A DNA stretch of 64,000 nucleotides from Natrarchaeobius halalkaliphilus. Its GTDB lineage: Archaea > Halobacteriota > Halobacteria > Halobacteriales > Natrialbaceae. The position numbers and the translations under genes are program-made. Below, piece after piece: positions 9,037 to 49,994 of the stretch. Positions within the stretch are counted from its first letter, which is position 1; every line of letters begins with the position of its first letter. The notes beneath the pieces were generated by a model that saw nothing but the letters and a program-made list of their open reading frames with translations, was not told the origin of the DNA and ran no database searches. The stretch lies in NCBI RefSeq assembly GCF_003841485.1, contig NZ_REFY01000002.1, positions 558,001 through 622,000 on the forward strand, in the 5' to 3' direction.

Positions 9037-9116
9037 TACGGTTTACTGTAAATCATTGCCGGCGCACCCGCGACCCGGGCGGCGGGTGCGCCGGTAAATC
9101 GTTGCAGTAATCCGTA
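9037..9116. repeat. 80-bp hairpin element, copy 1
   Basis: An element bounded by TACGG and CCGTA with layout 20-nt arm, 15-bp stem, 10-nt loop, 15-bp stem, 20-nt arm. The inner stem includes CCGGCGCACCCGC pairing with its exact complement. TCA triplets (TGA on the minus strand) flank both ends; the right one, 9117-9119, is the stop codon of the small gene at 9117-9308. The interior is nearly identical to copy 2 at 43034. It lies between nirK and that convergent gene. Confidence 0.85.
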
Positions 9117-9308
9117 TCACGTCCAGACGCGCAGGCAATCGTTCGAGCAGAAGTGGAGATCGACCTGCTCGTCCGACCCATCGTCGACGTACGTCCGGAG
9201 CGTGTAGGCGATCTCGTCGTCTGACTCGCAGTTGTCGCACGTGGCGGCGACGCACTCGCCGCGATCCGCGCGGACGGTCGTATCGGCGTACATATCGATC
9301 GAGGGCAC
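9117..9308 (-). CDS. small Cys-rich probable zinc-binding protein
   Basis: 63 residues with CDNC near residue 24 and CSNDC near residue 54, four cysteines well placed for one zinc site. Small proteins of this layout are common and uncharacterised in haloarchaea. Its TGA stop is shared with the border of hairpin element copy 1, so the element begins immediately after the coding sequence. No operon partner: nirK ends about 275 bases away on the opposite strand. Confidence 0.8.
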   Translation of the reverse strand: MPSIDMYADTTVRADRGECVAATCDNCESDDEIAYTLRTYVDDGSDEQVDLHFCSNDCLRVWT

Positions 9309-9450
9309 CGACTACCCTCTTCAGTATGCTCCGGTTAGAACGATTCAGCGCAAAGAAAGGCGAGATTAATGCGGATCGATACTCCCGACGGATCGCCACA
9401 GTCGAGAGCGTCTTTCGAGTGTCGCGAAACCGGCGGACAGCGGTCCGTAA

Positions 9451-10428
9451 TCAGGCCGGCGCGCCGCCTTCCGCCTCGAGAAGTTCGTGATACCGGTTTC
9501 GAATAGTGACTTCGGAGATGCTCGCGACGTCGCTGACCTCGTTCTGGGTGACCTTCTCGTTGGTCAACAGCGCGGCGGCGTAGACGGCGGCCGCGGCGAG
9601 GCCGACCGGTGATTTACCGCTGTGTATCCCTTCCTCTTTGGCCGTCTTGAGCAGCGTTCTGGCACGCCGTTCGGTCTCGTCGGAGAGCTCGAGATCGCTC
9701 GCGAATCGGGGCACGTAGCTTTCCGGATCGGCGGGTTTGACCTCGAGGCCGAGTTCGCGGATCACGTACCGGTAGGTGCGAGCGATTTCGTCCTTCTCGA
9801 CGCGGGAGACGGCCGAGATCTCGTCGAGACTTCGCGGAGTGCCGGCCTGGCGGGCGGCGGCGTACAGCGACGACGTCGCCACCCCCTCGATCGACCGGCC
9901 GGGAAGCAGGTCCTCCTCGAGGGCGCGGCGGTAGATGACGCTGGCAGTTTCGCGGACGTTCTCGGGGAGGCCGAGCGCGCTGGCCATGCGGTCGATCTCG
10001 CCGAGCGCCTGTTTGAGGTTGCGCTCTTTGCTATCGCGAGTTCGGAAGCGCTCGTTCCAGGTGCGCAGGCGCTGCATCTTCTGGCGCTGGCGGCTCGAGA
10101 GGGACTTGCCGTAGGCGTCTTTGTCCTGCCAGCCGATGTTGGTCGAGAGCCCCTGATCGTGCATCATGTTGGTGGTGGGAGCACCGACGCGGCTCTTGCT
10201 GTCCTTTTCGGCGGAGTCGAAGGCGCGCCACTCGGGGCCGCGATCGATCTCGTCTTCGTCGACGACGAGGCCACACTCGACACAGACGGTTTCGCCGTGT
10301 TCGTCGTCGCTGATTACGCGACCGCCACACTCGGGGCAGCGCTCGCGTTCGTCGGCCTCCTCGAGCGATTCCTCTCGCTCGGTCTCGCGGCGCTCGTCGC
10401 TGTGCGTTCGGATCGTAGAGTCGGTCAT
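9451..10428 (-). CDS. tfb: transcription initiation factor IIB (TFB), copy 1
   Basis: About 325 residues. N-terminal zinc ribbon CPECGG...CVECGL, B-finger/linker with GPEWRAF and SRVGAPTT, then two cyclin-like repeats (about 130-320) ending with an HTH that includes [15 protein letters not shown] binds TBP-TATA and BRE and recruits RNA polymerase. The ATG at 10428 was preferred over an in-frame extension to 10509, because the extra residues precede the usual acidic N-terminus. Haloarchaea carry several TFBs with distinct promoter preferences; another lies at 18496-19458. Confidence 0.95.
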   Translation of the reverse strand: MTDSTIRTHSDERRETEREESLEEADERERCPECGGRVISDDEHGETVCVECGLVVDEDEIDRGPEWRAFDSAEKDSKSRVGAPTTNMMHDQGLSTNIGWQDKDAYGKSLSSRQRQKMQRLRTWNERFRTRDSKERNLKQALGEIDRMASALGLPENVRETASVIYRRALEEDLLPGRSIEGVATSSLYAAARQAGTPRSLDEISAVSRVEKDEIARTYRYVIRELGLEVKPADPESYVPRFASDLELSDETERRARTLLKTAKEEGIHSGKSPVGLAAAAVYAAALLTNEKVTQNEVSDVASISEVTIRNRYHELLEAEGGAPA

Positions 10429-10631
10429 TGTGTTGGAACTGATCGAAGGACGGTGGAAAACGTTCTCGCGTGTATACTGTATAATGGGTCGGCAATCACT
10501 TAAAAACACGGGTCGAATAACGGGCGAAAACGGAGTTCGCCCGGAGGAACGAATCGATACGACAGGAACGCAGGCGTTCTCCCGACCGGTATATCGAAAC
10601 CCTTACTCTCCGGAGGCCGGTCCGAACAGGT

Positions 10632-10910
10632 ATGAGCGACGACGCCGTCAGTCCCGAGGAGGTCCGCCACGTCGCGGAGCTGGCTCGTGTCGACCTCGCG
10701 GACGACGAGGTCGACCAGTTCACCCGGCAGTTCGCGGACATCCTCGAGTACTTCGATACGCTGGACGAGGTACCGGAAATCGACCGTGACGCCGACCTCG
10801 TGAACGTCATGCGACCCGACGAGGAACGCGATTCGTTCGAAAGCGACGCGGCGCTTCGGAACGCGCCCGAAACCGAAGACGGCTACTTCAAAGGACCGAA
10901 CGTCTCCTGA
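10632..10910 (+). CDS. gatC: Asp-tRNA(Asn)/Glu-tRNA(Gln) amidotransferase subunit C
   Basis: 92 residues. It has the GatC signature: an N-terminal VRHVAELARVDLADDEV helix, FADILEYFDTLDEV, and a C-terminal belt ending in DGYFKGPNVS. GatC stabilises GatA and helps couple it to GatB in making Asn-tRNA or Gln-tRNA by transamidation. It is directly upstream of gatA with a two-base gap. No gatB is present in the window. Confidence 0.95.
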   Translation: MSDDAVSPEEVRHVAELARVDLADDEVDQFTRQFADILEYFDTLDEVPEIDRDADLVNVMRPDEERDSFESDAALRNAPETEDGYFKGPNVS

Positions 10911-10912
10911 TC

Positions 10913-12190
10913 ATGTCGAATATTTTCATCACCGAGGAGACGATCGAAGGGGCCGCCGACGGTCCCCTCGCGGGCCGAACAGTCGCCGTCAAGGACAACA
11001 TCTCGACCGCCGACGTCCGGACGACCTGTGGCTCGACGATGCTCGAGGAGTACGTCCCGCCCTACGATGCAACCGTCGTCTCGCGGATCAAAGACGCCGG
11101 CGCGACGATCGTGGGCAAGGCCAATATGGACGAGTTCGGGATGGGGACGACGACCGAAACGTCCGCGTTCGGAGCGACGGACAACCCGACCGCGCCCGGC
11201 CACGTTCCGGGTGGCTCTTCGGGCGGCTCTGCGGCGGCGGTCGCCGCCGACGAGGCGGATCTCGCACTCGGCTCAGACACCGGCGGATCGGTTCGCTGCC
11301 CGGCCGCATTCTGTGGCGTCGTCGGCATCAAACCGACCTACGGGCTCGTTTCGCGATACGGACTCGTCGCCTACGCCAACAGCCTGGAGCAGATCGGTCC
11401 CTTCGGAGAGACCGTCGAGGACGCCGCCGCGTTGCTCGACGTGATCGCGGGACCGGACGACCGCGATGGGACGACCCGCGAGCCACCGGGGAGTTCAGAG
11501 CGCCCGACGAGCTACGCCGACGCCGCAACGGGCGACGTCGACGGGCTCTCGATCGGCGTCCCCACCGAGCTACTCGAAGGTGCCGACGACGGCGTTCTCG
11601 AGACGTTCTGGGACGCGATCGGTGAACTCGAGACCCGCGGCGCGAAGTACCACGAGGTGTCGCTGCCGTCGGTCGAACACGCCGTCGAGGCCTACTACGT
11701 GATCGCGATGTCGGAAGCCTCCTCGAACCTCGCGCGGTTTGACGGCGTCCGCTACGGTCACTCGGGCGGCTACGACGGCAACTGGAACGAGGCGTTCGCC
11801 GCGGCTCGGCGGGAGGGATTTGGCGACGAGGTCAAACGACGCATCCTGCTCGGCACGTACGCCCTGTCGGCGGGCTACCACGACAAGTACTACAAGAAAG
11901 CACAGGACGCTCGCGCCTGGGTCAAACAGGACTTCGACGAGGCGCTGTCCGAGGCCGACGTGCTCGCGTCACCGACGATGCCCGTGCCGCCGTTCGAACT
12001 CGGAGAGAGCCTCGACGATCCGCTCCAGATGTATCTGGCGGACGCGAACACCGTCCCGGTCAACCTCGCGGACCTGCCCGCGATTTCGGTCCCCGCGGGC
12101 GAGACCGACGGTCTTCCCGTCGGACTTCAGCTGGTCGGTCCGTCGTTCGGCGAAGAGCGCCTCGTGCGTGTCGCAAGCGCACTGTCCTGA
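10913..12190 (+). CDS. gatA: Asp-tRNA(Asn)/Glu-tRNA(Gln) amidotransferase subunit A
   Basis: 425 residues, amidase-signature family. The Ser-cisSer-Lys triad is visible: Lys in VAVKDN (about residue 28), and the Ser pair in GGSSGGSAAAV followed by GSDTGGSVRCPAAFCG (about 100-140). It hydrolyses glutamine and delivers ammonia to GatB for amidation of mischarged tRNA. It forms a two-gene operon with gatC. The length is slightly shorter than bacterial GatA, as usual for haloarchaea. Confidence 0.96.
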   Translation: MSNIFITEETIEGAADGPLAGRTVAVKDNISTADVRTTCGSTMLEEYVPPYDATVVSRIKDAGATIVGKANMDEFGMGTTTETSAFGATDNPTAPGHVPGGSSGGSAAAVAADEADLALGSDTGGSVRCPAAFCGVVGIKPTYGLVSRYGLVAYANSLEQIGPFGETVEDAAALLDVIAGPDDRDGTTREPPGSSERPTSYADAATGDVDGLSIGVPTELLEGADDGVLETFWDAIGELETRGAKYHEVSLPSVEHAVEAYYVIAMSEASSNLARFDGVRYGHSGGYDGNWNEAFAAARREGFGDEVKRRILLGTYALSAGYHDKYYKKAQDARAWVKQDFDEALSEADVLASPTMPVPPFELGESLDDPLQMYLADANTVPVNLADLPAISVPAGETDGLPVGLQLVGPSFGEERLVRVASALS

Positions 12191-12337
12191 CTCGACGAGC
12201 GCGGACCGTCGGTCGAACCGAACTGCAACGGAGCCGGTTAAAAACTCGTTCGGGAGCTCACGCGATGCCGTAACGATTTTCCGGCGGGACCGCAGGCGTA
12301 TCGCGGTTGTGCCGGTACTGACGCACAGCAGACCGCA

Positions 12338-12697
12338 TCACTCCTCGTAGGCGAGATTCATGATCCACTGCGAGAAGGCGTCGCTGTTCGGATCGACCTC
12401 CTCTTCCCCGATGAACGGCGAGAGCATATCCCCTGCCATCAAGAGCGTGAACTCGAGGTCTCGGGCCGTCGGCGTAATGTAGTAGGTGTTGTGTCCGTCG
12501 TAGACCGTGTCCTCGCGGTCGACCAGATCCTTTTCGACCAGCGATTCGACGATCCGACTGCCTTTGCGCGAGGAGACGTCGAGTTCCTTCCAGAAGTCGC
12601 TCTGGTGGATACCGCCGGTTTCGCGGACGAGTTCGAGTCCGTTCCACTCGTCGTCGGAGAGTTCCGCTTCGGCTGCGGTAACGCTCACGGAGACCAC
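12338..12697 (-). CDS. winged-helix regulator, MarR-like
   Basis: 119 residues: a winged helix (about 18-80: GIHQSDFWKELDVSSRKGSRIVESLVEKDLVDRED) with a following wing (TYYITPTARDLEF). The short C-terminal tail may dimerise. Such small HTH proteins are frequent in haloarchaea; the target is unknown. The start is a GTG at 12697; a second GTG lies a few codons in. It is not in an operon. Confidence 0.8.
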   Translation of the reverse strand: MVSVSVTAAEAELSDDEWNGLELVRETGGIHQSDFWKELDVSSRKGSRIVESLVEKDLVDREDTVYDGHNTYYITPTARDLEFTLLMAGDMLSPFIGEEEVDPNSDAFSQWIMNLAYEE

Positions 12698-12760
12698 CTC
12701 GCCATGCTCGCCGCTAGGGGCAGGAGTGCGTCCATGTGCGTATGAGAGAGTGCGAGCCGC

Positions 12761-13552
12761 TTAAATGTGCCCTTCGACGTCACCGTCGGCATCAGAACCG
12801 GCGGAATCGGTCGGTGATCGAACGCCTTCGTAGCTGGTTCGACAGGGCGGACCCGGTGCGAACCGGTACGTCGACGTCCCGCCGAGTGCGATCAGCGACG
12901 AAGACCGCGTTCCGAACCCGTCCTCGTGGAGACAGACGCCGTACTCGTGATCAGCGAGGACGGAGCCGGCCCGCTCGAGCCAGGCCTCGACCGGCTCGCC
13001 GGGATCCGTGGTATCGACCGAGAGAGCGCGTCGCACCCGGCGAGCGTTTCGAGCCTGCTCGCGGGCCGCATCGGGCCGGCTCGGTGGGACGACGACCTCG
13101 TCATCGACGGCGGCGTTGACCACGACGTGAACGCCGGGATCGAACGCCGTTCGGTCCAGGTGGCCGTCCCACCGGTAGCAGACCGCGTCCTCGGCGTCAG
13201 CGATGACGAGATTGAACGCGTCGTACTCGTCGGCGGCGACCGCGTCGGAGAGCACCGCGTTCGCAGCCAGGACCGATTCGGCCTCGAGAACGTCCGCGAC
13301 GAGCAGGCCGCGCGAGCGCTCGCCGGCGAGATCCGCGTCGGTCCAGCCGTTGGTGATCCCCGCGAAGACGCCGAACTCGTTGTAGCCGATCCAGGTGCCG
13401 CCGGCGGCCGCGTCCGTCGGCGCGACGACGAGCGGGTCCGTCCGGTAGACGGCGGGTGGAAGCGAGTCGCGCTCGAGCGCCTCGTCCCGGTTCGCTGCGA
13501 CTGCCACCGGTGCGTCCTCGAAGACCTGCCAGGCGAGAGTGAGGGTGCACAC
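12761..13552 (-). CDS. NRDE-family protein (TANGO2-like)
   Basis: 263 residues from the GTG at 13552, chosen because it puts Cys at position 2 (VCTLTLAW). Members of this NRDE/TANGO2-like family start with Met-Cys, and the Cys is thought to be an N-terminal nucleophile. The namesake NRDE motif is present in VAANRDEALER (about residue 20-30), and GGTWIGYNEFGVFAGITN is the second conserved block. The biochemical role is unknown; animal TANGO2 is linked to heme or lipid handling. It is separate from its neighbours. Confidence 0.88.
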   Translation of the reverse strand: MCTLTLAWQVFEDAPVAVAANRDEALERDSLPPAVYRTDPLVVAPTDAAAGGTWIGYNEFGVFAGITNGWTDADLAGERSRGLLVADVLEAESVLAANAVLSDAVAADEYDAFNLVIADAEDAVCYRWDGHLDRTAFDPGVHVVVNAAVDDEVVVPPSRPDAAREQARNARRVRRALSVDTTDPGEPVEAWLERAGSVLADHEYGVCLHEDGFGTRSSSLIALGGTSTYRFAPGPPCRTSYEGVRSPTDSAGSDADGDVEGHI

Positions 13553-13603
13553 GATCGAAGAAAGCGGTTCCAGCACCTTAACACCGATTCTCACAGGACC
13601 GTC

Positions 13604-14020
13604 TCACCCCTTGACGGTGATCGTCACCGTCAGGTCCGCCCCGTCGGCGAGCGCCTCCACGAGGTCGCGATCGAACCCCTCGGCTGCGAACGCCGCCTCG
13701 AGCAGGATCGTCCGCTCGTCGACGTGCTCGCTCGTCCGGCCGACGGCGCTGCGGTCGCTCTCGAACGCGAGATCGGGATCGCCCCGTCCCTCGACCGAGT
13801 CTCGGTGGCCGTCCGCCTCGAGCGTGACGGCGATCGTCGCGTCGGCGTTCCGACACGCCCGGACGAACGCGGGGTCGAAATCGGCGGGTGCGCGGTCGGC
13901 GTCGATCGCGAGGATGCAGTCGCCGGCCGGGGTGAGATAGTCGTCGGTGGTCACTTCGAAGGTGCTCGCGTGCGCCGCGCTGACGTGTTCGTGTCCTCGA
14001 GCGTGGATGACTTCCTCCAT
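13604..14020 (-). CDS. DUF371 family protein
   Basis: 138 residues. It matches the archaeal DUF371 pattern: MEEVIHARGHEHVSAAHASTFEVTTDDYLTPAGDCILAI at the start, with conserved GH, H-TT-E and GDCI elements, and a C-terminal TVTITVKG. The family is archaeal and uncharacterised. It ends 51 bases upstream of the NRDE gene on the same strand, so co-transcription is possible. Confidence 0.85.
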   Translation of the reverse strand: MEEVIHARGHEHVSAAHASTFEVTTDDYLTPAGDCILAIDADRAPADFDPAFVRACRNADATIAVTLEADGHRDSVEGRGDPDLAFESDRSAVGRTSEHVDERTILLEAAFAAEGFDRDLVEALADGADLTVTITVKG

Positions 14021-14227
14021 GCGACGTCGGTACGTTCCCGGGGGGAAAACGGACTCGGATCGGAGACGATCCGCGCTGACGGTCGGTCGACGTCGCTCGA
14101 GGACGACAGCCGTGACGCTGCACTCGAAGACGGATTCGATTCGAACGACGCGGCGGAAAGACGTCCCGCTAGGTACGCCGGAGGGCGAACCGTCCGCGAC
14201 GTTCTGAGTGGAGCCGCCGAACCGACG

Positions 14228-27747: not shown

Positions 27748-29319
27748 TCAGTCGTCGGCCGGCGCGAGCGGCTCGGCTTCGACCGCGAGTAGCCGGTCGA
27801 GGGCGTCGACCATCGCCTCGACGCTCGCGCGGGTGATGTCGGCTTCGCTTCGTGCGACGGTCACGGAGCGGTCGTCCTTGGCCATCGTGACCTCGACGGT
27901 GACGACGGCGTCCGTTCCGCCCGTCACCGCGTCGACGCGGTAGGACTCGAGTTCGGCGTCGGCCGCCGAGCCGAGCGCTTCTCGCACCGCGGAGACGGCC
28001 GCGTCGACGGGTCCCGAGCCGGTGCCGCTGGCGACGCGTTCCTCGCCGGCGACCTCGAGTCGGATGCTGGCGGTCGGGACGGCCCCGCCGCTGGTGGCGG
28101 TGAGATCGAGCAGTTCGACGACGCGCTCGCGGTCGTCGCCGGTAACGTCTTCAGCGACGGCGAGCAGGTCGGCGTCGGTGACGCGACGGCCGCGATCACC
28201 GAGTTCGGTCACGCGCGTTGCGATCTCGGCGATCTCGTCGTCGCCGGCCTCCACGTCGTGTTCCTCGAGCGTGGCCTTGACCCCGGCGCGGCCGGTGTGC
28301 TTGCCGAGTGCGATTCGGCGTTCGCGCCCGACCGTCTCGGGAGCGTAGGGCTCGTACATCTTGTCGTCTTTGAGCGTGCCGTCGGTGTGGATGCCGCTCT
28401 CGTGGGTGAACGCGTTCTCCCCGATGACGGCCTTGTTCGGCGGCAACTGCACGCCCGTCGAGCGCGAGACGATCTGTGCGAGGTCGTACAGTTCCTCGAG
28501 TTCGACGGTGTCGACGCCGTAGACGTGCGAGAGCGCGATCGCCACCTCCTCGAGAGCGACGTTTCCGGCGCGTTCACCGAGTCCGTTGACTGTGCAGTGA
28601 ACGAGGTCGGCACCGGCCGAAATCGCCGCGAGCGCGTTGGTCACGCCGAGTCCCAGATCGTCGTGAGTGTGCGCGCTGACCGGGCCCAGCTGGGCGAGCC
28701 TCTCGACCGCCTGTGCGGTTCGTTCCGGACCCGTGTGGCCGACGGTGTCGGCAAAGCAGGTCCGGTCTGCGCCCGTCTCGAGGGCGGTCGTGCCGAGTTC
28801 CTCGAGATAGTCGAGATCGGCACGGGAGCCGTCCTCTCCGATGACCTCGACCCAGAGATCGTGAGACGTGGCGTACTCGACGAGTTCGGCGGTTCTCTCG
28901 AGGTTGTCCTCGCGGGACGTTCCGACCTTGTCCTCGACATGACGGTCGCTCGCGGGGACCACGATGTGAACCCCGTCGACGTCGCAATCGAGCGCGAGAT
29001 CGATGTCCGATCGCATCCCGCGACAGAAGCTGGTTACGGTCGCTTCGAGATCGAGATCGGTGACGCGTGCGATGGCCTGGCGTTCGCCCGCGCCGGTACA
29101 GGCGCTGCCAGCCTCGATGACGTCGACACCCGTACGCTCTAACGCGCGGGCAATTTCGACTTTCTCGTCGGGCGACAGCGAGACGCCCGGTGCTTGTTCG
29201 CCGTCGCGAAGCGTCGTATCGAGAAGACGGACTGTGCGATCCGATGGAATCGTCTGTTCGGTGGAGTGTTGTACAGGCAAGAGTGATGAACTGCGATCAG
29301 TGTCGCCGCGGAATTTCAC
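27748..29319 (-). CDS. (R)-citramalate synthase / 2-isopropylmalate synthase family enzyme
   Basis: 523 residues from a GTG at 29319. An HMGL-like TIM barrel (about 30-290) shows LLDTTLRDGEQAPGVSLS, the metal-binding HTHDDLGLGVTNALAAI and GLGERAGNVALEEV. A linker with GENAFTHESGIHTDG leads to the C-terminal LeuA allosteric dimerisation domain (about 390-515). The enzyme condenses acetyl-CoA with pyruvate (citramalate, for isoleucine) or with 2-oxoisovalerate (leucine). Sequence alone does not settle which; the absence of ilv/leu neighbours favours citramalate synthase, since leuA is often clustered. Confidence 0.9.
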   Translation of the reverse strand: MKFRGDTDRSSSLLPVQHSTEQTIPSDRTVRLLDTTLRDGEQAPGVSLSPDEKVEIARALERTGVDVIEAGSACTGAGERQAIARVTDLDLEATVTSFCRGMRSDIDLALDCDVDGVHIVVPASDRHVEDKVGTSREDNLERTAELVEYATSHDLWVEVIGEDGSRADLDYLEELGTTALETGADRTCFADTVGHTGPERTAQAVERLAQLGPVSAHTHDDLGLGVTNALAAISAGADLVHCTVNGLGERAGNVALEEVAIALSHVYGVDTVELEELYDLAQIVSRSTGVQLPPNKAVIGENAFTHESGIHTDGTLKDDKMYEPYAPETVGRERRIALGKHTGRAGVKATLEEHDVEAGDDEIAEIATRVTELGDRGRRVTDADLLAVAEDVTGDDRERVVELLDLTATSGGAVPTASIRLEVAGEERVASGTGSGPVDAAVSAVREALGSAADAELESYRVDAVTGGTDAVVTVEVTMAKDDRSVTVARSEADITRASVEAMVDALDRLLAVEAEPLAPADD

Positions 29320-29550
29320 GCCCAGCCGGGTTGCCCCGACTTCCTCTATCCTCGTCGTCCGGCGTAGAGAACGAATCTCGAGCCATGTAACTCGAGTTAT
29401 CGAACGGCCGCGACTTAAACCCGCCGATTACGCTCGTTTGCTCGCGAGTCGACGCCGACCGGAGCGAGGACGATCACAGGACTCTGCCACGGGTGCACCG
29501 ACGATGGAACGACCAATACACCCATGCACGTTGGTACCATTGGGCTCCGT

Positions 29551-31394: not shown

Positions 31395-33806
31395 TTATCG
31401 GGCCGAACTGACCATCGGTTCAGCCGTGTCGTTGCCGTTGTTCTCGTCGACGTCACCGTCATCAGCGACATCCTCTCCGTCATCAGCGACGTCGTCACCG
31501 TTGGCCTGCTCGAGCGTGACGATCGCGTCGTCGGTCACTGGTTCGCCAGCGACTTCGTACGGAACGTCCTCTTGACCGTCACTCTCGACGAAGTCGAGTT
31601 CCTGGTTATCGTTCGTATCGCGGTGTGCCATCGCGATCAGCGTCTCGTCTTCCTCGAGCGGTTGCTCGAGCGTTACCTCGACGTTCTCGTGAGTCCCCGG
31701 CTCGAGGTAGTCGGATGCCCCGAGAATGCTACCGAAGACGTCACCGACGAGGAGACTGCTATCGTGAACCACCACGAACCCGCCACTGGCCATCGTCACT
31801 TCGTCCACGACGACGGTCTGACCGTCAGTGGCCTGATCTTCGAACGTTACGTTCGCGGGCACCGGCTCGTCGGTGTCTTCAGGATCTTCCTCGGGTTCTT
31901 CCTCGACTGGTTCCTCTTCAACCGGCTCTTCCTCGACTGGTTCCTCTTCAACCGGCTCTTCCTCAACCGGTTCCTCTTCGACCGGCTCTTCCTCAACCGG
32001 TTCCTCTTCAACCGGCTCTTCCTCAACCGGTTCTTCCTCGGTCAATTCGAGAACGGCGACCTCACCGAACTCGTCCGTTAGAACCATGTGGAAGTACTCA
32101 CCGGCTTCGAGACCCTCCGTCTCGATATCGAATACCACATCGTCGGTCTCGTCCGCCTCGAGTGTTACGTCCTGTGACTCGACGAGGTCGCCGTCGAGTC
32201 GGAACTGCACGTCCTGCGTGTCTTCGGAGTCGCCCGGATTGGAGACCGTTGCCGTGACAGTGATCGGTTCACCGACCGTTGCGTTCTCGGGTGCATCGAG
32301 CGCGTCAACGGTGAAGGATTCCGATGGTTCCTCCTCAACAGGGTCCTCCTCGGGCTCTTCATCGACCGGCTCCTCTTCGACTGGGTCTTCTTCAGGTTCT
32401 TCGTCAACCGGCTCCTCTTCGACTGGGTCTTCTTCAACCGGTTCTTCCTCGATCTCGTCGTCAGCTTCTTCGAGATAGACGAAGATCGTTGCCTGCTCGA
32501 TAGTGACTGTGATTTGGTCACCGTCGGCCGCATCGCCGTCCTCGAGTCCGTTATCGTCCGCGTCGTCGTCCTCGAGTCCGTTGTCGTCCGCATCGCCGTC
32601 CTCGAGTCCGTTATCGTCCGCGTCGTCGTCCTCGAGTCCGTTGTCGTCCGCGTCATCGTCCTCGAGGTCGGTATCATCAACTGGTGAGACTGCCGGGAGC
32701 TGATCGAGATCAACCATGACGATGATCGTCGCCTGTTCGATGCTGATCTCGTGGCCCTCGACAACCGATTCGTTGTCATCGACGTCGTCTACCGCATTGG
32801 CATCGTCGTCGACACCATCCTCGTCGAGTTCGTCATCAGCTTCCTCGTCAGTCAGTTCTTCGTCAGCGTCATCATCGAATTCGTCAATAACGACGAAGAC
32901 CGTTGCCTGATCGATGTCGACGCTTTCGAGGTCGTTCTCGTCTGCATCGTCGTTCGGTAGGTCACCGTCTTCGATAACGACGAAGACCGTCGCGTGCTCG
33001 ACGGTCACGTCTAACTCGTCGCGATCTACAGCGTCGTCGTCCTCGAGTCCGTTATCGTCTGCATCGTCGTCCTCGAGTCCGTTATCGTCTGCATCGTCGT
33101 CCTCGAGTCCGTTATCGTCCGCATCGTCGTCCTCGAGTCCGTTATCGTCCGCATCGTCGTCCTCGAGTCCGTTATCGTCCGCATCGTCGTCCTCGAGTCC
33201 GTTATCGTCCGCATCGTCGTCCTCGAGTCCGTTATCGTCCGCATCGTCGTCCTCGAGTCCGTTGTCGTCCACGTCGTCGTTACCATTCTCGTCCGCGTGG
33301 GCACCGATCTGCGTGATCGATGCCTGCTCGATCGTTACCTCGAGCTCTGCGTCCGAGATTTCGACGTACTCGTCCTCGTGGTCATCGGTATCGTACTCGT
33401 CGTCCTCGAGTCCGTTGTCATCCGCGTCGTCGTCCTCAAGGCCGTTGTCATCCGCGTCGTCGTCCTCGAGTCCGTTATCGTCCGCGTCGTCCTCGAGTCC
33501 GTTATCGTCCGCGTCGTCGTCCTCGAGTCCGTTATCGTCCGCGTCATCGTCCTCGAGTCCATTGTCGTTCACATCGTCGTCCTCGAGTTCATCGTCGGGG
33601 ACATCGTCCATGTCGTGAACGACGAAGATATCCGCGTGTTCGATCGTTACTGTCAGCGATACATCGTCGAGTAGCTCGTGCTCACTCGCGTCGGTGTCGT
33701 GCTCGTCGACGGTCGTAGCTGGTGCCGCCCCAGCAACCATCGCCCCGCTCGAGCACACCATCATCAGCGCAGTGAGTACTACGAGTAACTGATTGCGTGC
33801 GTTCAT
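31395..33806 (-). CDS. secreted, highly acidic repeat protein with TSP3-like and Glu/Pro repeats
   Basis: 803 residues from the ATG at 33806, giving a Sec signal (NQLLVVLTALMMVCSSGAMVAGAAPA). Three blocks of a ten-residue repeat, LEDDDADDNG, are separated by short beta-like motifs (TIEHADIFVV, TIEQASITQI, TVEHATVFVV, DIDQATVFVV, SIEQATIIVM, TIEQATIFVY). Next come Glu/Pro/Val repeats, a CARDB-like domain (FTVDALDAPENATVGEPITV...), further EEPVEEEP repeats and a C-terminal DUF7282-like domain (VTFEDQATDGQTVVVDEV). The repeat resembles calcium-binding thrombospondin type 3 motifs. Probably a cell-surface or matrix protein; no LPxTG or PGF tail is seen. Confidence 0.88.
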   Translation of the reverse strand: MNARNQLLVVLTALMMVCSSGAMVAGAAPATTVDEHDTDASEHELLDDVSLTVTIEHADIFVVHDMDDVPDDELEDDDVNDNGLEDDDADDNGLEDDDADDNGLEDDADDNGLEDDDADDNGLEDDDADDNGLEDDEYDTDDHEDEYVEISDAELEVTIEQASITQIGAHADENGNDDVDDNGLEDDDADDNGLEDDDADDNGLEDDDADDNGLEDDDADDNGLEDDDADDNGLEDDDADDNGLEDDDADDNGLEDDDAVDRDELDVTVEHATVFVVIEDGDLPNDDADENDLESVDIDQATVFVVIDEFDDDADEELTDEEADDELDEDGVDDDANAVDDVDDNESVVEGHEISIEQATIIVMVDLDQLPAVSPVDDTDLEDDDADDNGLEDDDADDNGLEDGDADDNGLEDDDADDNGLEDGDAADGDQITVTIEQATIFVYLEEADDEIEEEPVEEDPVEEEPVDEEPEEDPVEEEPVDEEPEEDPVEEEPSESFTVDALDAPENATVGEPITVTATVSNPGDSEDTQDVQFRLDGDLVESQDVTLEADETDDVVFDIETEGLEAGEYFHMVLTDEFGEVAVLELTEEEPVEEEPVEEEPVEEEPVEEEPVEEEPVEEEPVEEEPVEEEPVEEEPEEDPEDTDEPVPANVTFEDQATDGQTVVVDEVTMASGGFVVVHDSSLLVGDVFGSILGASDYLEPGTHENVEVTLEQPLEEDETLIAMAHRDTNDNQELDFVESDGQEDVPYEVAGEPVTDDAIVTLEQANGDDVADDGEDVADDGDVDENNGNDTAEPMVSSAR
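33031..33270 (-). repeat. 30-bp tandem repeats, eight units
   Basis: Eight consecutive 30-bp units beginning GCATCGTCGTCCTCGAG; the first and last have one or two changes. They encode the second DDADDNG repeat block of the secreted protein. Shorter arrays of the same unit lie at about 32540-32670 and 33407-33570. The near identity of the DNA suggests recent expansion by slippage or unequal recombination, so copy number probably varies between strains. Confidence 0.9.
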
Positions 33807-38134: not shown

Positions 38135-38572
38135 ATGATGACGCGGATCCAGCGAACACGGACGCAGGACGGACGTCGACTCGAGGTCTCGCACGTGTTC
38201 GAAGCGCCGCCAGCGGAGGTCTGGGACCTTCTCGTGGATACGACTCGGTGGACCGAGTGGTTACCCATCGTCGGCGTCGAATCGACCGATCGCCGGATTC
38301 AGGCGGGAACGTCCGGTCGAATTCGCGTCCCCGGCGTCTGGCTGCCGTTCGTCGTCACGGATCGAGCGGATCGTCGCTGGACGTGGCGGATCGCCGGTGC
38401 GATGGGAGCCACTCACCGGGTCGACGACCTCGGCGCGAAGCGCTGTCGTGTCGCCTTCGAACTACCGCCTCATGCGGTGGGATCAGCTCCCCTCTGTCTC
38501 GATGCAGTGGAACGAATCGAACGTCTGTGGGACGCCGAACGAAGCGAGACAGCCGAAGCTGGAACCGACTGA
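38135..38572 (+). CDS. SRPBCC/START-like protein
   Basis: 145 residues; the ATG at 38135 is followed by a second ATG. VSHVFEAPPAEVWDLLVDTTRWTEWLPIVGVESTDRRIQAGTSGRIRVPG is the N-terminal half of the SRPBCC lipid/ligand-binding fold, seen in polyketide cyclases and Aha1-like proteins. No catalytic residues can be named. The gene ends 121 bases before the HxlR gene, so the two may be expressed together. Confidence 0.8.
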   Translation: MMTRIQRTRTQDGRRLEVSHVFEAPPAEVWDLLVDTTRWTEWLPIVGVESTDRRIQAGTSGRIRVPGVWLPFVVTDRADRRWTWRIAGAMGATHRVDDLGAKRCRVAFELPPHAVGSAPLCLDAVERIERLWDAERSETAEAGTD

Positions 38573-38621
38573 CAGCAGCCTGTACGACCCCCGACCTCAC
38601 GACGGCGGTCGTCGACCAAAA

Positions 38622-38638
38622 GGTAACATGATGTTACC
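38622..38638. promoter_or_regulatory. 17-bp palindrome, operator candidate for the HxlR gene
   Basis: GGTAACAT-G-ATGTTACC is a perfect palindrome with a single central base, 56 bases upstream of the HxlR ATG and just before AT-rich CTATAGTGG. GTAAC/GTTAC dyads are typical of winged-helix dimers, so autoregulation is likely. Confidence 0.65.
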
Positions 38639-38693
38639 TCGTTCGATACCGAACTGCTATAGTGGTCCGCGCCGAACGAACGGACAGAGACAG

Positions 38694-39098
38694 ATGGCAT
38701 CCCCACAGACGACAGCGAGCGAACGACCTCCCGACGCCTGTCCAGTCATCGAATCGTTAGAACAGATCGGCTCGCAGTGGCGACTGGCCGTTCTCCACGA
38801 ACTCCTCTCCGGCGAACAGCGGTTCAACGAACTCAAGCGCTCGACCGGCGCGAACGCTCGAACGCTCTCGCGCGTCCTCGACGACCTCGGCGAGATGGGA
38901 TTCGTCGAGCGACGAATCGAAGAGGACGCCCCCATCGCAACGTATTACAGCCTTTCTCCGAAGGGGCGATCGCTCGAGCCCGTCTTCGGTGAAATAGAGT
39001 GCTGGGCGGGAACCTGGCTCGAGAACGAACCCGAGGAAGACCGTCTCGAGAGCGACGCGAACGCGGGCCGCCTGGAGGACGAGCTCAAAACCGAGTGA
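38694..39098 (+). CDS. HxlR-family transcriptional regulator
   Basis: 134 residues from the ATG at 38694. HxlR signature: CPVIESLEQIGSQWRLAVLHELLSGEQRFNELKRSTGANARTLSRVLDDLGEMGFVERRI. A wing with IATYYSLSPKGRSL and an acidic C-terminal tail (EEDRLESDANAGRLEDELKTE) follow. CPV near residue 14 is the Cys that senses electrophiles in some HxlR proteins. Its TGA stop (39096-39098) is the left border of hairpin element copy 3. Confidence 0.92.
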   Translation: MASPQTTASERPPDACPVIESLEQIGSQWRLAVLHELLSGEQRFNELKRSTGANARTLSRVLDDLGEMGFVERRIEEDAPIATYYSLSPKGRSLEPVFGEIECWAGTWLENEPEEDRLESDANAGRLEDELKTE

Positions 39099-39178
39099 TA
39101 CGGTTTGCTGTGACTTTTTACCGGAGCGACCGCGAGCCGTCCTGCGGTCGCTCCGGTAACGACTTACAATAGACCGTA
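39099..39178. repeat. 80-bp hairpin element, copy 3
   Basis: Begins TACGGTTTGCTG and ends AGACCGTA, with inner 15-bp stem TACCGGAGCGACCGC (39119-39133), ten-base loop and the exact complement (39144-39158). TGA at 39096-39098 is the HxlR stop; TGA at 39179-39181 closes the other side. The five bases GAGTG also appear on both flanks if the border is drawn one base in. It is nearly identical to copy 4 read on the minus strand, and lies between two convergent genes. Confidence 0.85.
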
Positions 39179-39245
39179 TGAGTGGGTCGGCCTCCCGGCA
39201 GAGTACTGGGGCGATTACTGCAGAGCAGGCACAAAGCCTGTCCGT

Positions 39246-42547: not shown

Positions 42548-43033
42548 ATGAGCGATGATCGACATGCGTTGGCGGGCGATCTCGACGAGTTGGCGGAGAT
42601 CATCCAGACCAGTATCGACGATAACCAGGAGTTCCTCTCGTGGCTCGGGACGACCGTCGACGGCGTCGACGAGGGAACGATGACGTTGTCGATTCCGTAC
42701 GATGAGAAACTGACTAACACCAGATCGAACGCACCGAACGACAGACGAGCGGATATCCACGGCGGCGTCGCAGCGACGCTCATCGACACCGTTGGCGGCC
42801 TCGCGCTTCGAACGGAACTCGAGGATCCGCTTGCGGCGAGCATCGCGACGATCAACCTGAACGTCAACTACCTCCGACCTGCAACTGGCGATCTCGTCGG
42901 AACGGCGACCGTTATTCGAGCGGGCTCGAGCATCGGCGTGAGTGAGGTCGTCGTCGAGAGTACGACCCCCGACGGGCGAACGCGGGAAGTGGTAACCGGG
43001 CAGGGATCGTATCGGCTCTTTCGAAACGACTGA
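42548..43033 (+). CDS. PaaI-family hotdog thioesterase
   Basis: 161 residues. A hotdog fold with IHGGVAATLIDTVGGLALRTEL is the PaaI active-site block (HGG with Asp following). NLNVNYLRPATGDLVGTATVIRAG completes the core. It hydrolyses acyl-CoA or aryl-CoA thioesters. It lies 39 bases after the histidine kinase gene. Its TGA (43031-43033) is the left border of hairpin element copy 2. Confidence 0.9.
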   Translation: MSDDRHALAGDLDELAEIIQTSIDDNQEFLSWLGTTVDGVDEGTMTLSIPYDEKLTNTRSNAPNDRRADIHGGVAATLIDTVGGLALRTELEDPLAASIATINLNVNYLRPATGDLVGTATVIRAGSSIGVSEVVVESTTPDGRTREVVTGQGSYRLFRND

Positions 43034-43113
43034 TACGGTTTACTGTAAATCATTGCCGGCGCACCCGCGACCCGGGCGGCGGGTGCGCCGGTAAATCGTT
43101 ACAGTAATCCGTA
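43034..43113. repeat. 80-bp hairpin element, copy 2
   Basis: TACGGTTTACTG at the left end and AATCCGTA at the right, with stem CCGGCGCACCCGC and its complement around a ten-base loop. Borders: TGA 43031-43033 (stop of the thioesterase gene) and TGA 43114-43116, which is at once followed by another TACGG (43117-43121), perhaps a remnant of a second insertion. It differs from copy 1 at one base. It lies between convergent genes. Confidence 0.85.
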
Positions 43114-43269
43114 TGATACGGACCGCAGTCAGTCAGTTCCGTCACACTCCGAAGTGGGATTGGGATGTGGCGATACCTCGACGCGGCAAGCCGTACGAGA
43201 TCGATCGGGAGGGACGTTATAGTTTGCCGACTATTCGGTGTGTCGACGAATTCGGCGTCGGGGTCCGTC

Positions 43270-44339: not shown

Positions 44340-44726
44340 TCACGGATCTCGCATCCGAATGCCGTCCTGAACCAGTCGGACGTTCCGTTCGCGCTCGAGG
44401 TGCTCGGCGAGTTCGTCGTGTTCGTAAAGCTGGGCGATCACGTCCGCGTACAACGTTCGCCAGGCGATCGCGTAAATCGGGGACTGCCCCCACGCACGCA
44501 GTTCAGGGACGAGCTCGTCGTAGGTCCGATAGCGCTCTTCGAAGCGGTCGATCGCCTCGAGCGCCCGCTGTGCGGCTTCCTGGTCGTCATCGGCCTCCCC
44601 AATCGCATCGTTCAGGTGGCGCTCCCAGCCCGCGACCGCCTCCTGCATATCCGGTGCGGCGACGTCGTCGTCGGCCGGCAGTCGCTCGAGAACCGGTTTC
44701 GGAACACCCAGTGACAGTTCGTCCAT
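44340..44726 (-). CDS. conserved helical protein, function unknown
   Basis: 128 residues from the ATG at 44726 (MDELSLGVPKPVLERLPADD). Mostly helical and acidic, with AVAGWERHLNDAIGEADDDQEAAQRALEAIDRFEERY and an aromatic-rich core (PIYAIAWRTLYADVIAQLYEH). The codon use and acidity are those of a real gene. No family recognised and no operon partner. Confidence 0.75.
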   Translation of the reverse strand: MDELSLGVPKPVLERLPADDDVAAPDMQEAVAGWERHLNDAIGEADDDQEAAQRALEAIDRFEERYRTYDELVPELRAWGQSPIYAIAWRTLYADVIAQLYEHDELAEHLERERNVRLVQDGIRMRDP

Positions 44727-44868
44727 GCGTGAACAGTTGTGAGCCACCGGCAAGAAACCACGGACACGGATCAGTATCGAGACGGTCGCTCGACGGTGGC
44801 ACGAATCTCGACGGCGTCTTCTGGATCGCTTACCGCGTGAGACGAGAGACCCGTTTTTGTAGATCATC

Positions 44869-44891
44869 ATACGGTTTATTTGTTGCCGTAT
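44869..44891. repeat. 23-bp mini inverted repeat with hairpin-element ends
   Basis: ATACGGTTTA...TTGCCGTAT: both ends match the terminal bases of the 80-bp element family (TACGGTTTA and CCGTA), but only 11 bases lie between the outer arms. It may be an internally deleted relic or chance. Confidence 0.4.
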
Positions 44892-45449
44892 TCCGCGCTG
44901 ACCGGCGGGTCGTTCGAACAACGAGAACGGAGACGCGGTCAACGTACCACTGAACACGACAAAAGCCCGGGTCGGAGATCCGATGAATCCCGGTCGTCCA
45001 ACGGTCGCTGATTCGCTGATGGTGAACACGCATTCGAGCGCCTCGTCGAGTGAGTTTACCATCAGTTACTCGCGCGTGTGCGAGACAACGAGGGCGCTCA
45101 GTTCGGTTGGCGGTTTTTCTGCGCAGGACCGATCCCCGTCAGTGTCGACGCGGATATCCCGTAGAAACGGCAGTTCCGAAGCGATCCGCACTCGAGGAGT
45201 TCGAGTAGCGGACGGTCCGGCGTGAAACGAGAGGAACGACGTGACGGCTCCGACCGCATCGGAGGACAGAACCGGAACATCCCCCGAACCGGCTCGTAGA
45301 ACAGACTCTCGAGAGTATTCCATCGAGAACGTAATCGGTTCAACGCTACTCCTGGGACCGGATCGATGGCCACGTTGCCAGCTCCCCGACCACGGCCGTA
45401 CCCGAAATCGATGACGAGTGAGACGCGACCGCGCGACGACGATAGCTGA

Positions 45450-45549
45450 TAGGGATTATCGTAGCCAACCGCAGGGTTTGACGTCCGTCCGTCGACGCTG
45501 TGTCTCGGTACGTTGAGGGAGAAACTATGAACTCCTACGATAATCCCTA
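45450..45549. repeat. 100-bp inverted-repeat (MITE-like) element
   Basis: TAGGGATTATCGTAG (45450-45464) and CTACGATAATCCCTA (45535-45549) are perfect 15-bp terminal inverted repeats. TGA flanks both ends (45447-45449 and 45550-45552), as for a 3-bp target duplication. The 70-base interior has no gene. It is unrelated in sequence to the 80-bp family but shares the TGA borders. Confidence 0.7.
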
Positions 45550-46470
45550 TGAGTGATCGACGTCACGGCAACTAGCACGCGTCCGGTAGGAACGGACGAA
45601 CGACGAACACGTGGGTAGACGAGAGGTGGTGTCGACCGTTTTCGTCGTCGAGACGAGAGGGCCATTCGGATTTCGACGGACATACCGATTCTCATCGTTC
45701 GAGAGCCGCTCAAGCTCCAGAATATAGCTCAAAGCCGACTGATAAATCATATAAGGCAATATCAAATATTTCAGAAGGTGCCCGACACTACCCAAATCCG
45801 TCGACGTTACAGTCGTAGGCGCGCGGGCCGCTGGGATCGGTACCGGTGTCGCCCTGTCGCTATCGGTTTGGAGATGGTAATCCTCGAGCGCGACGGGACC
45901 GAACCCGCAAACGGATAGCAGGGCACTATCGGGTGCGCTAACCAAATGCTTCGGAAAGCGAAGTAATGGTGAATTCACCGTTCGCGGGATCGAGATGCGC
46001 CAGCGAACGCAGACGGTAGCGGCACTCGAGTGATCGTCACGAGAGGGAGGTCGCCGGCAACGATGCTGACGTTCGGATCGAGACACCGATACTCAAATCG
46101 ACACGCGGTACCGACGCGACGCGCAGTACCGCCGTTCCGAACGTGATAAATTCGAGCACCACGTTTATCGTCTACAGACGTCTTGAAGACGGCAGTCTAT
46201 CATGAGCCAAAGCAAGGGGGCGGAAAACCACGTACGCATCGGCACTGGGAGAGGGCATAGAGACGTTCCATCGATCGAAACTGTCCCGAGATGTGAGGAG
46301 AGCGCACGTATATCCGTATTCACCGAGAACAACGAACGAATGCGGCCGACACGGATCCACGATCGGGACCGCGACAGAGACCCCGACAACACGGGCTATT
46401 CCCACGAGAGACGGAACACCGCACTCGATACCGACGAGTGGAACGGAACTGAAGCCGGGACGAAACAACC

Positions 46471-46929
46471 ATGAGTACTGCTGGATCCACACAGCCCGAA
46501 CGAGCACAGATCCTGTTAGTCGAGGACAATCCGGGTGACGTCAGACTAACCGAAGAAGCGTTCAAGCGGGGACGAATCGACAACGACCTCCACGTCGCCT
46601 CCGACGGGAACGAAGCGCTCGATTTTCTCTCCCAGCGCGGTTCCTACGCCGACGTCCCACGACCCGATCTCATCCTGCTGGATCTCAACCTGCCGCGAAC
46701 GGACGGCGAAGAAGTCCTCAAAGAACTCAAAGACGATCCCACGCTTCGATCGATTCCGGTGATCGTACTAACGAGTTCGCGGGCCGAAGAGGACATCGCG
46801 AGATCGTACGAGCTACACGCCAACGCCTACCTGACCAAGCCAGTCGATCCCGACGAGTTCATCAAGACCGTCAGGGCGTTCGAAAAGTTCTGGTTTTCGG
46901 TCGTTCGCCTCCCATCGGAGGTCGAATAA
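46471..46929 (+). CDS. stand-alone receiver-domain response regulator
   Basis: 152 residues, CheY-like: acidic pocket VEDNPGD, phosphoacceptor Asp in [13 protein letters not shown] (about residue 68), TSSR and the Lys in YLTKPVD. No output domain. This Rcp1-like type usually pairs with phytochrome-like kinases. The next gene starts two bases after its stop. Confidence 0.92.
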
Positions 46930-46931
46930 CC

Positions 46932-48629
46932 GTGAGCTTCGACGACTGGAGCGGCGTGAACGGGCGTCCTTCCCGGTCCGACGACGACACAAAGACGCTT
47001 CGGATCCTCCTGGTCGAAGACAATCCGGGCGACGCCCGACTCATCGAGGAAATGCTCGACGAAACCGACGAACTCGTACAGCGGGTCGGCTCGGGCGGTG
47101 CGACGCAGGCCACGGAGATGAATCGCGAGGTGCGACTCGAGGACGGACTCGAGACGCTCGGGGACGAGCCGATAGACATCGTCTTGCTCGATCTGAATCT
47201 GCCGGATAGCGAGGGGATACAGACGCTCGAACGGATTCACGAGGAGAACGAAGCGGTACCGATCGTGGTCCTGACCGGACTCAGAGATCAACAGGTCGGC
47301 GTCAGGACCATCCAGCGCGGTGCACAGGATTTCCTGGTCAAAGACGAAGTCACGAGCGAGTTGCTCGTCCGAACGATCCATCACGCGATCGAACGGGCGC
47401 GCCAGGAGCACGAGCGACGCCATCAGCGCGAACAGCTCGAGGCCCTCAACCGGCTCAACCGGATCGGTCACGACATCACGCACGCGGTGATCACGACCGA
47501 AACGCGTGCGGATCTCGAGCAACGCGTCTGTGAGCGACTCGCGAAGTCCGATGCCTACCGCTTCGCCTGGATGGGAAGCGTCAACCCGGGGAGCAATCGC
47601 GTGGTTCCGAAGGCCGCAGCCGGCGTCGAAGATGGTTACCTGGACGATATCGAGATTACGGTCGACGAGGACGATCCCGAAGGTCAGGGACCCTCCGGAT
47701 CCGCGATTCGTACCGGCTCGGTCCAGGTCATGAGCGACATTCACTCCGAACCCGACTACGAACCGTGGAGAGAGCAGGCCACAGAACGAGGCTACCAGGC
47801 GTCCGTCGCGATCCCGATCATCCACGAGGACCTCGTGTACGGCGTTCTCAACGTCTACTCGTCGTCACCGCACGCGTTTACCGGCCCCGAAACGACGATT
47901 CTCGCACGGATCGGGGACGTTATCGCACACGCGATCACGGCGATCGAACGACGCGATGCGCTGGTTAGCGACGCCGTCATCGAACTCGAGTTTCGGGTCG
48001 AATCGTTCGCAGAGCCGCTCGTTTCGCTCTCGAGTGTCGAATCGTGCGTGATCGAGATCGAACAGCTGATCCGCGGCGACGAGACGTTACTGGCGTACGG
48101 GTCGGCACACGACGTCCCCCAGGAGGCGTTTCAGGAGGCAGTCGACGACACGGAGGGCGTAGACGAGGTTCGGTTCCTCTCGGTCAGACGAAACGGGTTC
48201 GAGTTCGAGATCGTCGCTCCGGTTGCCGCGTCGCTCCTCGAGGCCATCGCGACCCACGGCGGCCGAGTCGATTCCGCGACGATCGCAGAGGGGGAGTTCC
48301 GGTTCGTCGTGGAGCTGCCCCAGGGACGGGACACTCGACAGATGATCGAAATCATCAACGAACAGCGCGACGACGTCACCTACCTCGCACAGCGGACCAC
48401 CGACCGGAGCGACCGAACCAACGCGGATTCACAGTCGGTTCTCGAACGTGAGCTGACGGAAAAACAACGGGCCGCACTCGAGACGGCGTACTTCGCCGGC
48501 TACTTCGACTGGCCGCGAGAGAGTACCGGAGAAGAGATCGCGGACCGACTCGGCATCGCCCCGGCGACGTTCAATCAGCACTTGCGAACTGCGGAGCGGA
48601 AGTTCTTCGATTCGATCTTCGGTGAATAG
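46932..48629 (+). CDS. receiver-GAF-HTH_10 (Bat-like) regulator
   Basis: 565 residues starting with GTG. An N-terminal receiver (about 24-145: VEDNPGDARL, Asp in VLLDLNLPDSEG, Lys in FLVKDEV) has an insertion (TQATEMNREVRLEDGLETL). A GAF domain follows (about 180-335: AYRFAWMGSVNPGSNRV...VYGVLNVYSSSPHAF), then a Bat-type middle domain (about 345-500) and a C-terminal HTH_10 (LTEKQRAALETAYFAGYFDWPRESTGEEIADRLGIAPATFNQHL). A one-protein sensor-regulator coupled to the preceding receiver; stimulus and targets unknown. Confidence 0.92.
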   Translation: MSFDDWSGVNGRPSRSDDDTKTLRILLVEDNPGDARLIEEMLDETDELVQRVGSGGATQATEMNREVRLEDGLETLGDEPIDIVLLDLNLPDSEGIQTLERIHEENEAVPIVVLTGLRDQQVGVRTIQRGAQDFLVKDEVTSELLVRTIHHAIERARQEHERRHQREQLEALNRLNRIGHDITHAVITTETRADLEQRVCERLAKSDAYRFAWMGSVNPGSNRVVPKAAAGVEDGYLDDIEITVDEDDPEGQGPSGSAIRTGSVQVMSDIHSEPDYEPWREQATERGYQASVAIPIIHEDLVYGVLNVYSSSPHAFTGPETTILARIGDVIAHAITAIERRDALVSDAVIELEFRVESFAEPLVSLSSVESCVIEIEQLIRGDETLLAYGSAHDVPQEAFQEAVDDTEGVDEVRFLSVRRNGFEFEIVAPVAASLLEAIATHGGRVDSATIAEGEFRFVVELPQGRDTRQMIEIINEQRDDVTYLAQRTTDRSDRTNADSQSVLERELTEKQRAALETAYFAGYFDWPRESTGEEIADRLGIAPATFNQHLRTAERKFFDSIFGE

Positions 48630-48733
48630 CTCGATCGGGAAAATACCGGAGGATATGCGGACGAACGGCCGTCGTCGAAAGCGACGAGCCGCGAGTTACA
48701 ATCGCTATCGGGAACGGGCGTCCGGCGGTGTGC

Positions 48734-49330
48734 CTACGCGCCGCGTGGTTCGGTCGCCCCCGACATCGTTTCGTCGGCGTTTCTGCCGTTGATCGCGACG
48801 ATACCCATCGAGAGTCCGGTGGCGAGGAGACCGATACCGACGAGCAGTCCGATCGCCCAGGCCGCATCGGCCGGGAATCCAGCCCAGAGCAGACCGGCGA
48901 GGACGAGCGAGAGGACGCCGCTCGCGGCAACGGACAGGCGTCCGGGCCGGTCCGCCATTCGCATCGACAGCCAGAGTTCAGCCACGGCGTCGACGAGGAG
49001 GTACGCGATCGCCAGGATCGTGAGGGTCGCGAGCCCGATGACGGGGTTTGTAAGCAGGACGATCCCGGCGACGATCGAGACGACCGCGAGCGTAAGCTGC
49101 CAGAGAGAGCCGCTCCAGCCGCGTGCGGTGTACGCGTGTGCGCCGTGGACGATTCCACCCACGACGAGAAGCGCGCCGAGACCGATCGTTACCGAAAGAC
49201 CGGTCGCGAGCGGGAACGCGATCGCGATCAATCCGATCAATCCAACGGCAACGCCCGCGATCGCGAGCGTTCGCCATCCTCGCTCGAGGGAGTATCCGCT
49301 CGGTTCATCGTCTACTGTTGCTGTGTTCAT
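48734..49330 (-). CDS. HdeD-family membrane protein
   Basis: 198 residues from the ATG at 49330 (MNTATVDDEPSGYSLERGWRTLAIAGV). About six membrane helices with the HdeD pattern (LGALLVVGGIVHGAHAY, SGSLWQLTLAVVSIVAGIVLL, AIAYLLVDAVAELWLS). Bacterial HdeD is linked to acid resistance; haloarchaeal copies are uncharacterised. It is convergent with the Bat-like regulator. Confidence 0.88.
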   Translation of the reverse strand: MNTATVDDEPSGYSLERGWRTLAIAGVAVGLIGLIAIAFPLATGLSVTIGLGALLVVGGIVHGAHAYTARGWSGSLWQLTLAVVSIVAGIVLLTNPVIGLATLTILAIAYLLVDAVAELWLSMRMADRPGRLSVAASGVLSLVLAGLLWAGFPADAAWAIGLLVGIGLLATGLSMGIVAINGRNADETMSGATEPRGA

Positions 49331-49489
49331 CAGAATCACCGTATGAACGTACGGCGCGTGAGTAGTTAAAGACGATACGCGATTGTGCGGTAAGTCAGAA
49401 ACATAGATCCGTCCAAATAGTGGACAAACGGGCACGTATCTTTGAGAAACGTGATCGAACCGGTGTCGAGTCGATCCCGACCAGCGTGA

Positions 49490-49786
49490 TTATGATGTCG
49501 CGCCGTGCTCGCGCAGTTCCACGTACTGGCCGTCGACGATTCGAACCTCGAATCGCTCGAGCGAGAACTCGACGATACCTCGACGGGTCGTCGAGTTCGT
49601 ATCGACGAAGAGGCGGTCGAGCGATTCGGGTGAAACGAACTCGAAGAGCGGACGCATCTCGGCCGGTTCGTCGCTGGTCGCTTGTTCGATCGCGCGGATG
49701 ACGGCTACTGACGGCTGTTCGTGTTCGTCTACCTCGACTCGAACCAGACACTCGTTGACGGAACGGTTGCGTCGGTACTCGGTCAT
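49490..49786 (-). CDS. HalOD1 output-domain protein
   Basis: 98 residues. SVAVIRAIEQATSDEPAEMRPLFEFVSPESLDRLFVDT followed by VEFSLERFEVRIVDGQYVELRE fits the HalOD1 fold, as in 43965-44234, although the two are diverged. Hairpin element copy 4 lies about 130 bases upstream of its start. Confidence 0.82.
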   Translation of the reverse strand: MTEYRRNRSVNECLVRVEVDEHEQPSVAVIRAIEQATSDEPAEMRPLFEFVSPESLDRLFVDTNSTTRRGIVEFSLERFEVRIVDGQYVELREHGATS

Positions 49787-49914
49787 CGGTATCCTCCAGT
49801 TCTAGACACGGAGTACGTACTCGAGGGCGCTCCCTCAACCGAACCGTTAGTCGATTCGGACGTTTAAATCGGGATTGGTATTCGACCCGACCGAACCGAT
49901 AATCGGTGGTCTCA

Positions 49915-49994
49915 TACGGTCTACTGTAAGTCGTTACCGGAGCGACCGCAGGACGGCTCGCGGTCGCTCCGGTAAAAAGTCACAGCAAACCGTA
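49915..49994. repeat. 80-bp hairpin element, copy 4
   Basis: Begins TACGGTCTACTG and ends CAAACCGTA, with stem TACCGGAGCGACCGC, ten-base loop and its exact complement. TCA at 49912-49914 and 49995-49997 (TGA on the minus strand); the right one is the stop of the HTH_10 gene. On the minus strand it matches copy 3 at all but two or three bases. Unlike the other copies it lies between two genes of the same strand. Confidence 0.85.

Follow-up and report, generated by a model that had tools for sequence, protein, structure and literature searches.

A palindromic, probably MITE-like mini-element of haloarchaea that duplicates TSA triplets and often lies at stop codons

The 80-bp hairpins that follow the stop codons of four genes in the window (the whole 64-kb stretch of DNA that was analysed) are copies of a widespread haloarchaeal non-coding mobile element, here called the TACGG family. 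Comparison with uninterrupted sites shows, at the level of sequence, that the TGA/TCA triplet found on both sides of the element is a 3-bp target duplication produced on insertion. The element is very probably MITE-like and non-autonomous, relying on an enzyme supplied in trans and on a TSA target, and its excess at stop codons would then reflect the match of stop contexts to the target motif together with the harmlessness of such insertions.

The initial annotation had described four 80-bp copies with the ends TACGG...CCGTA and a TGA on either side, and both the coordinates and the flanks are borne out (Table 1). On the forward strand the flanks of copies 1 to 4 read TCA/TCA, TGA/TGA, TGA/TGA and TCA/TCA, respectively, which is TGA..TGA in the sense of the gene. 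The assignment of the upstream TGA as a gene stop likewise stands in all four cases, as called genes end there according to an independent codon-usage gene caller trained on the window. Pfam agrees with the identities proposed for the neighbours, a zinc protein, HxlR, a PaaI thioesterase and an HTH_10 regulator; the matches are zf-FCS/DUF7576 (both just below the Pfam cut-offs), HxlR, 4HBT thioesterase and HTH_10/BAT. The half-element pattern has 9 matches in the window against 0.09 expected. The four copies fold as RNA with -46 to -59 kcal/mol, corresponding to z of -5.8 to -10.2 relative to shuffles. The proposed layout holds as regards a hairpin with a central stem, but the perfect stem measures 13-16 bp instead of a uniform 15, and the entire element folds over its full length into a single long imperfect hairpin. 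Two partial copies were also seen: a second TGATACGG... half-end at 43117-43142, directly past the copy at 43034 and probably what is left of a second element in tandem, and a decayed half-element with 3 mismatches on the minus strand at 12312-12337.

Table 1. Element copies, flanking triplets and adjoining genes in the window.
Feature	Position	Strand	Basis or remark
Element copy 1 (80-bp, TACGG...CCGTA)	9037..9116	-	pattern, fold, covariance model
Upstream TGA of copy 1, stop codon of the zinc-finger-like (zf-FCS/DUF7576) gene	9117..9119	-	
Downstream TGA of the duplication, copy 1	9034..9036	-	
Small zinc-binding protein gene, 3' part, ending at copy 1	9120..9311	-	
Element copy 2	39099..39178	+	pattern, fold, covariance model
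Upstream TGA of copy 2, stop codon of the HxlR gene	39096..39098	+	
Downstream TGA of the duplication, copy 2	39179..39181	+	
HxlR-family regulator gene, start uncertain	38397..39098	+	Pfam
Element copy 3	43034..43113	+	pattern, fold, covariance model
Upstream TGA of copy 3, thioesterase stop codon	43031..43033	+	same codon position in congeners without the element
Downstream TGA of the duplication, copy 3	43114..43116	+	
PaaI-type 4HBT thioesterase gene	42548..43033	+	Pfam
Element copy 4	49915..49994	-	pattern, fold, covariance model
Upstream TGA of copy 4, stop codon of the HTH_10 regulator	49995..49997	-	
Downstream TGA of the duplication, copy 4	49912..49914	-	
BAT/HTH_10 regulator gene	49995..50660	-	gene call, Pfam
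Sibling 100-bp family, ends TAGGGATTATCGTA...TACGATAATCCCTA	45450..45549	.	TGA flanks 45447-45449, 45550-45552

The family is large. In its own genome (G000) the half-element pattern yields 201 matches, as compared with 0 for the reversed control. A covariance model built from 16 copies, which was used for the genome and order-wide counts, detects at least 79 copies in the same genome and at least 70 in each of three congeners; at least 81 copies were tabulated in this 3.5-Mb Natrarchaeobius-type genome. According to the model, 91 of the 295 genomes of the order carry the family, which extends over 34 of its 88 genera, with carriers including Natrarchaeobius, Natrialba, Natrinema, Natronorubrum, Haloterrigena, Halobiforma, Halorhabdus and Salinadaptatus. 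The length varies from 75 to 84 bp, being mostly 79-80, and the copy number reaches about 100 per genome. Tandem or closely spaced copies occur at L182, L184, L186 and L240, some adjacent with a common TGA/TCA and others less than 100 bp apart. Searches of phage records gave chance matches only and those of viral contigs gave no match; an Aliidiomarina match (L300) was dismissed as a chance half-match, being a half-element without a mate. The literature on haloarchaeal MITEs, stop codons and small mobile repeats contained no description of the TACGG family that we could find, and yielded only the Haloquadratum paper (PMC3119063) and reviews.

Perfect TGA..TGA flanks, after orientation, are carried by 69 of 81 copies in the own genome and by 169 of 205 elsewhere. 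The triplet can be read as a 3-bp target duplication because uninterrupted orthologous sites and nested sites carry it once. A copy in G002 (L065) can be compared with an uninterrupted Natronorubrum site (L207), which is 80% identical over 159 nt and has one TCA. Similarly, a copy at L158 lies within an element of a third family, and an uninterrupted copy of that host element (L208) has 90% identity and one TGA. Most of these empty sites come from other species, with identities of 75-90%. Nesting was also found at L154, where a copy lies inside another TACGG element, and at L155, where a member of the sibling 100-bp TAGGG family lies in a TACGG element with the TCA duplicated. The PaaI stop is native, since congeners without the element end the gene at this very codon position, with TAA in G003 and TGA in G002. 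Two other comparisons were rejected as empty sites: that of Natrialba taiwanensis with a close relative, in which the gene tail differs (another relative shares this stop-site copy by descent), and the HxlR locus in G002, which has a different copy on the convergent side. At five loci (L037, L050, L273, L269, L283) the triplet is TCA at one end and TGA at the opposite end, a pattern that inversions between two copies would produce. The suggestion in the initial annotation that this is a non-autonomous mobile element whose TGA duplication preserves the stop is thus upheld by the empty sites, the nested insertions and the random polarity.

The two ends of the element differ at positions 16-18, type a having GTC and type b CGA, CTG or CTT, and 189 of 192 typed copies are heterotypic. 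These ends show no preferred polarity relative to TGA (90:99, p=0.56). At non-stop sites the target is SSWC-TSA-GWSS, and its symmetry is evident from the correlation of left base frequencies with the right complement (r=0.85, 116 non-stop sites). The central stem varies in sequence between subfamilies with the pairing kept, and divergent clusters pair with quite different stems; at the pair 30-51, AT was counted 122 times and GC 59 times among 190 unique copies, these cells not being independent events. Maintenance of pairing while the sequence varies suggests that the palindrome is needed for the spread of the element.

Exact location at a stop, noted in the window, proved to be common in the wider scan, although about half of the copies lie elsewhere. 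Taken across species, 113 of the 229 copies outside genes (49%) coincide exactly with a called stop; in the own genome this holds for 34 of the 66 such copies that have perfect flanks (52%), against the 12.8% of noncoding TGA/TCA that are stops (p=4e-14), where the gene calls come from a simple codon-usage caller and the background sites from one 64-kb window. In annotated plasmids of other genera, 5 of 8 copies lie at or almost at the end of an annotated CDS, the junction of the Haloterrigena glyA plasmid copy being off by a base or two. The four out of four in the window is partly luck, having a chance of about 6% at a 50% rate. The 52% against 12.8% in the own genome, together with a residual excess of the observed stop share over context alone (p=0.003), would favour a transposition machine that senses stop codons or terminating genes specifically, and targeting of this kind was implied in the initial annotation. 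However, TSA sites that are not stops but carry the same motif account for half of the copies. When the motif is derived from strict non-stop insertions, the motif-weighted expectation of the stop share is 35% (bootstrap 15-57%). Copies inside genes are few (9 of 238 vs. 59% of neutral targets), and 22 of 32 non-stop copies have a gene end no more than 100 nt away, vs. 76 of 259 background sites. Within 100 nt of gene 3' ends, the expected share at stops is 60% and the observed count 34 of 56 (61%). Since the motif plus tolerance at 3' ends predicts the share so closely, no stop-recognition mechanism is needed, and we give hardly any credence to a stop-sensing machine; there may be a modest additional preference for stops.

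A hairpin kept at gene ends by selection, as a terminator or mRNA stabiliser, was the other possibility raised at the outset. It would explain a strong hairpin 2 nt past the stop codon, the location of about half of the copies at stops in several genera, and the stem pairing kept across subfamilies. Yet neither the PaaI nor the HxlR locus has conserved the element among congeners, and half of the copies are away from stops. The convergent arrangement seen around three of the four window copies is not general, as convergent neighbours flank 50 of 112 element copies and 17 of 38 other TGA stops. There is no T-tract terminator-like site at the copy at 43034, the sole copy scanned, no T-run past the stem among the copies listed, and no family in Rfam when searched with the element. 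With the 3-bp duplication and random polarity being transposon traits, this alternative finds no support in T-tracts, convergence or congener conservation and is very unlikely, though the element may still influence transcripts in a secondary way. An IS200/IS605- or REP/RAYT-like single-strand element, for which the left TGA would be a strand-specific target and the right TGA a part of the element, is in keeping with a hairpin and a maintained palindrome, and empty sites with a single TGA would be expected from it as well. Single-strand insertion fixes polarity, whereas the heterotypic ends face TGA either way, and the preferred target is symmetric to left and right. This makes a single-strand element highly improbable; MITE-like transposition with a double-strand staggered cut is favoured because the target is symmetric, 3 bp are duplicated and either polarity is used.

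Under MITE-like transposition, a non-autonomous element would be moved in haloarchaea by an enzyme supplied in trans. Insertion takes place into a TSA triplet (read as TGA or TCA depending on the strand) in the SSWC-TSA-GWSS context, with duplication of the 3 bp. The target and polarity point to a transposase of the DDE type that cuts both strands with a 3-bp stagger, and the palindrome may be required by the transposase or by replication. TGA stops, often preceded by C-ending codons such as GAC, would match the target, and the duplicated TGA would restore the stop and make the insertion all but harmless, while those into genes or promoters would be purged by selection. Half of the non-genic copies would then be at stops because stops match the target and insertion there is nearly without harm.

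The mobilising transposase was sought among the PF01609 and PF13586 loci of six genomes, which turned out to be insertion sequences with other ends, none of them an autonomous element with the ends of the family. Unpaired TACGG ends in the genus, collected with a pattern without the internal CCGG, were decayed copies only, with no autonomous element. A 1473-bp TACGG-ended candidate in L364 was rejected because it consists of an unrelated insertion sequence (IS body 895-1833) with decayed and nested TACGG copies on its two sides.

The TACGG family resembles prokaryotic MITEs, including those of Haloquadratum walsbyi, in being short and non-coding, with inverted terminal repeats, target duplication, high copy number and nesting. 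It differs in that a parental transposon sharing its ends and duplication length was not found among the above six-genome loci or the unpaired ends of the genus, in forming one near-complete palindrome with a maintained central stem, and in its TSA-restricted target with half of the non-genic copies at stop codons. A 3-bp TNA-type duplication in a symmetric C-TNA-G-like context is typical of the IS1031/IS427 type of the IS5 family and of PIF/Harbinger (Tourist MITEs). The TACGG family shares the 3-bp duplication and symmetric context, with TSA only, but no cognate DDE transposase of this type with TACGG or TAGGG ends was found at the PF01609/PF13586 loci of the six genomes. For PATEs and IS200/IS605 elements, polarity relative to the target is fixed by the mechanism. 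Like them, the TACGG family consists of palindromic DNA in haloarchaea with transposase-free copies; unlike them, its polarity is random, and it has inverted repeats and a duplication, both of which PATEs are without (PMC3119063).

The closest haloarchaeal category described is the small mobile repeats (SMRs) of Haloquadratum. SMR-A and SMR-B of H. walsbyi are 80-110 bp long (the type HqIRS41 has 80 bp) with inverted terminal repeats and no known transposase, and their mobilisation was called enigmatic (PMC3119063). Both groups are haloarchaeal, with inverted terminal repeats and a similar size, as compared by description. SMRs are repeats unrelated to known transposons; for the TACGG family, the PF01609/PF13586 loci of six genomes gave no matching transposon. 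For SMRs, however, insertion without target duplication is reported, and PATEs/IS605 elements are the targets of SMR-A (PMC3119063), whereas the TACGG family makes a 3-bp TSA duplication and targets mostly gene 3' ends.

The sibling 100-bp family has other copies in the own genome at G000:C3:271663-271762 and G000:C7:85970-86069. Its relatives were noticed in L155, L230 and L244, and a 90-bp GAGGG relative in L063. A third repeat of ~83 bp with ends CTATAGTA...TACTATAG (L158, L208, L141, L223) often hosts or nests in TACGG elements. The window further contains, on the minus strand at 29308-29360, an Rfam leuA-Halobacteria RNA (RF03001, 69 bits) and, at 31395-33806, a gene of about 800 codons with a long tandem repeat region of 30-bp period.

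A bolder and rather doubtful proposal is that an unrecognised, perhaps domesticated, haloarchaeal transposase moves palindromic mini-element families (TACGG, TAGGG) throughout the order by a common 3-bp TSA rule with the hairpin required, the elements being substrates of a host or orphan enzyme and not derivatives of insertion sequences. The 3-bp rule common to the two families offers a handle on finding the enzyme. With 34 genera and an exact testable target rule, the TACGG family shows how stop codons can be occupied harmlessly. It makes two things open to test: the identity of the enzyme behind the mobility of the enigmatic small haloarchaeal repeats, and whether a hairpin directly past the stop alters the 3' ends of dozens of transcripts.
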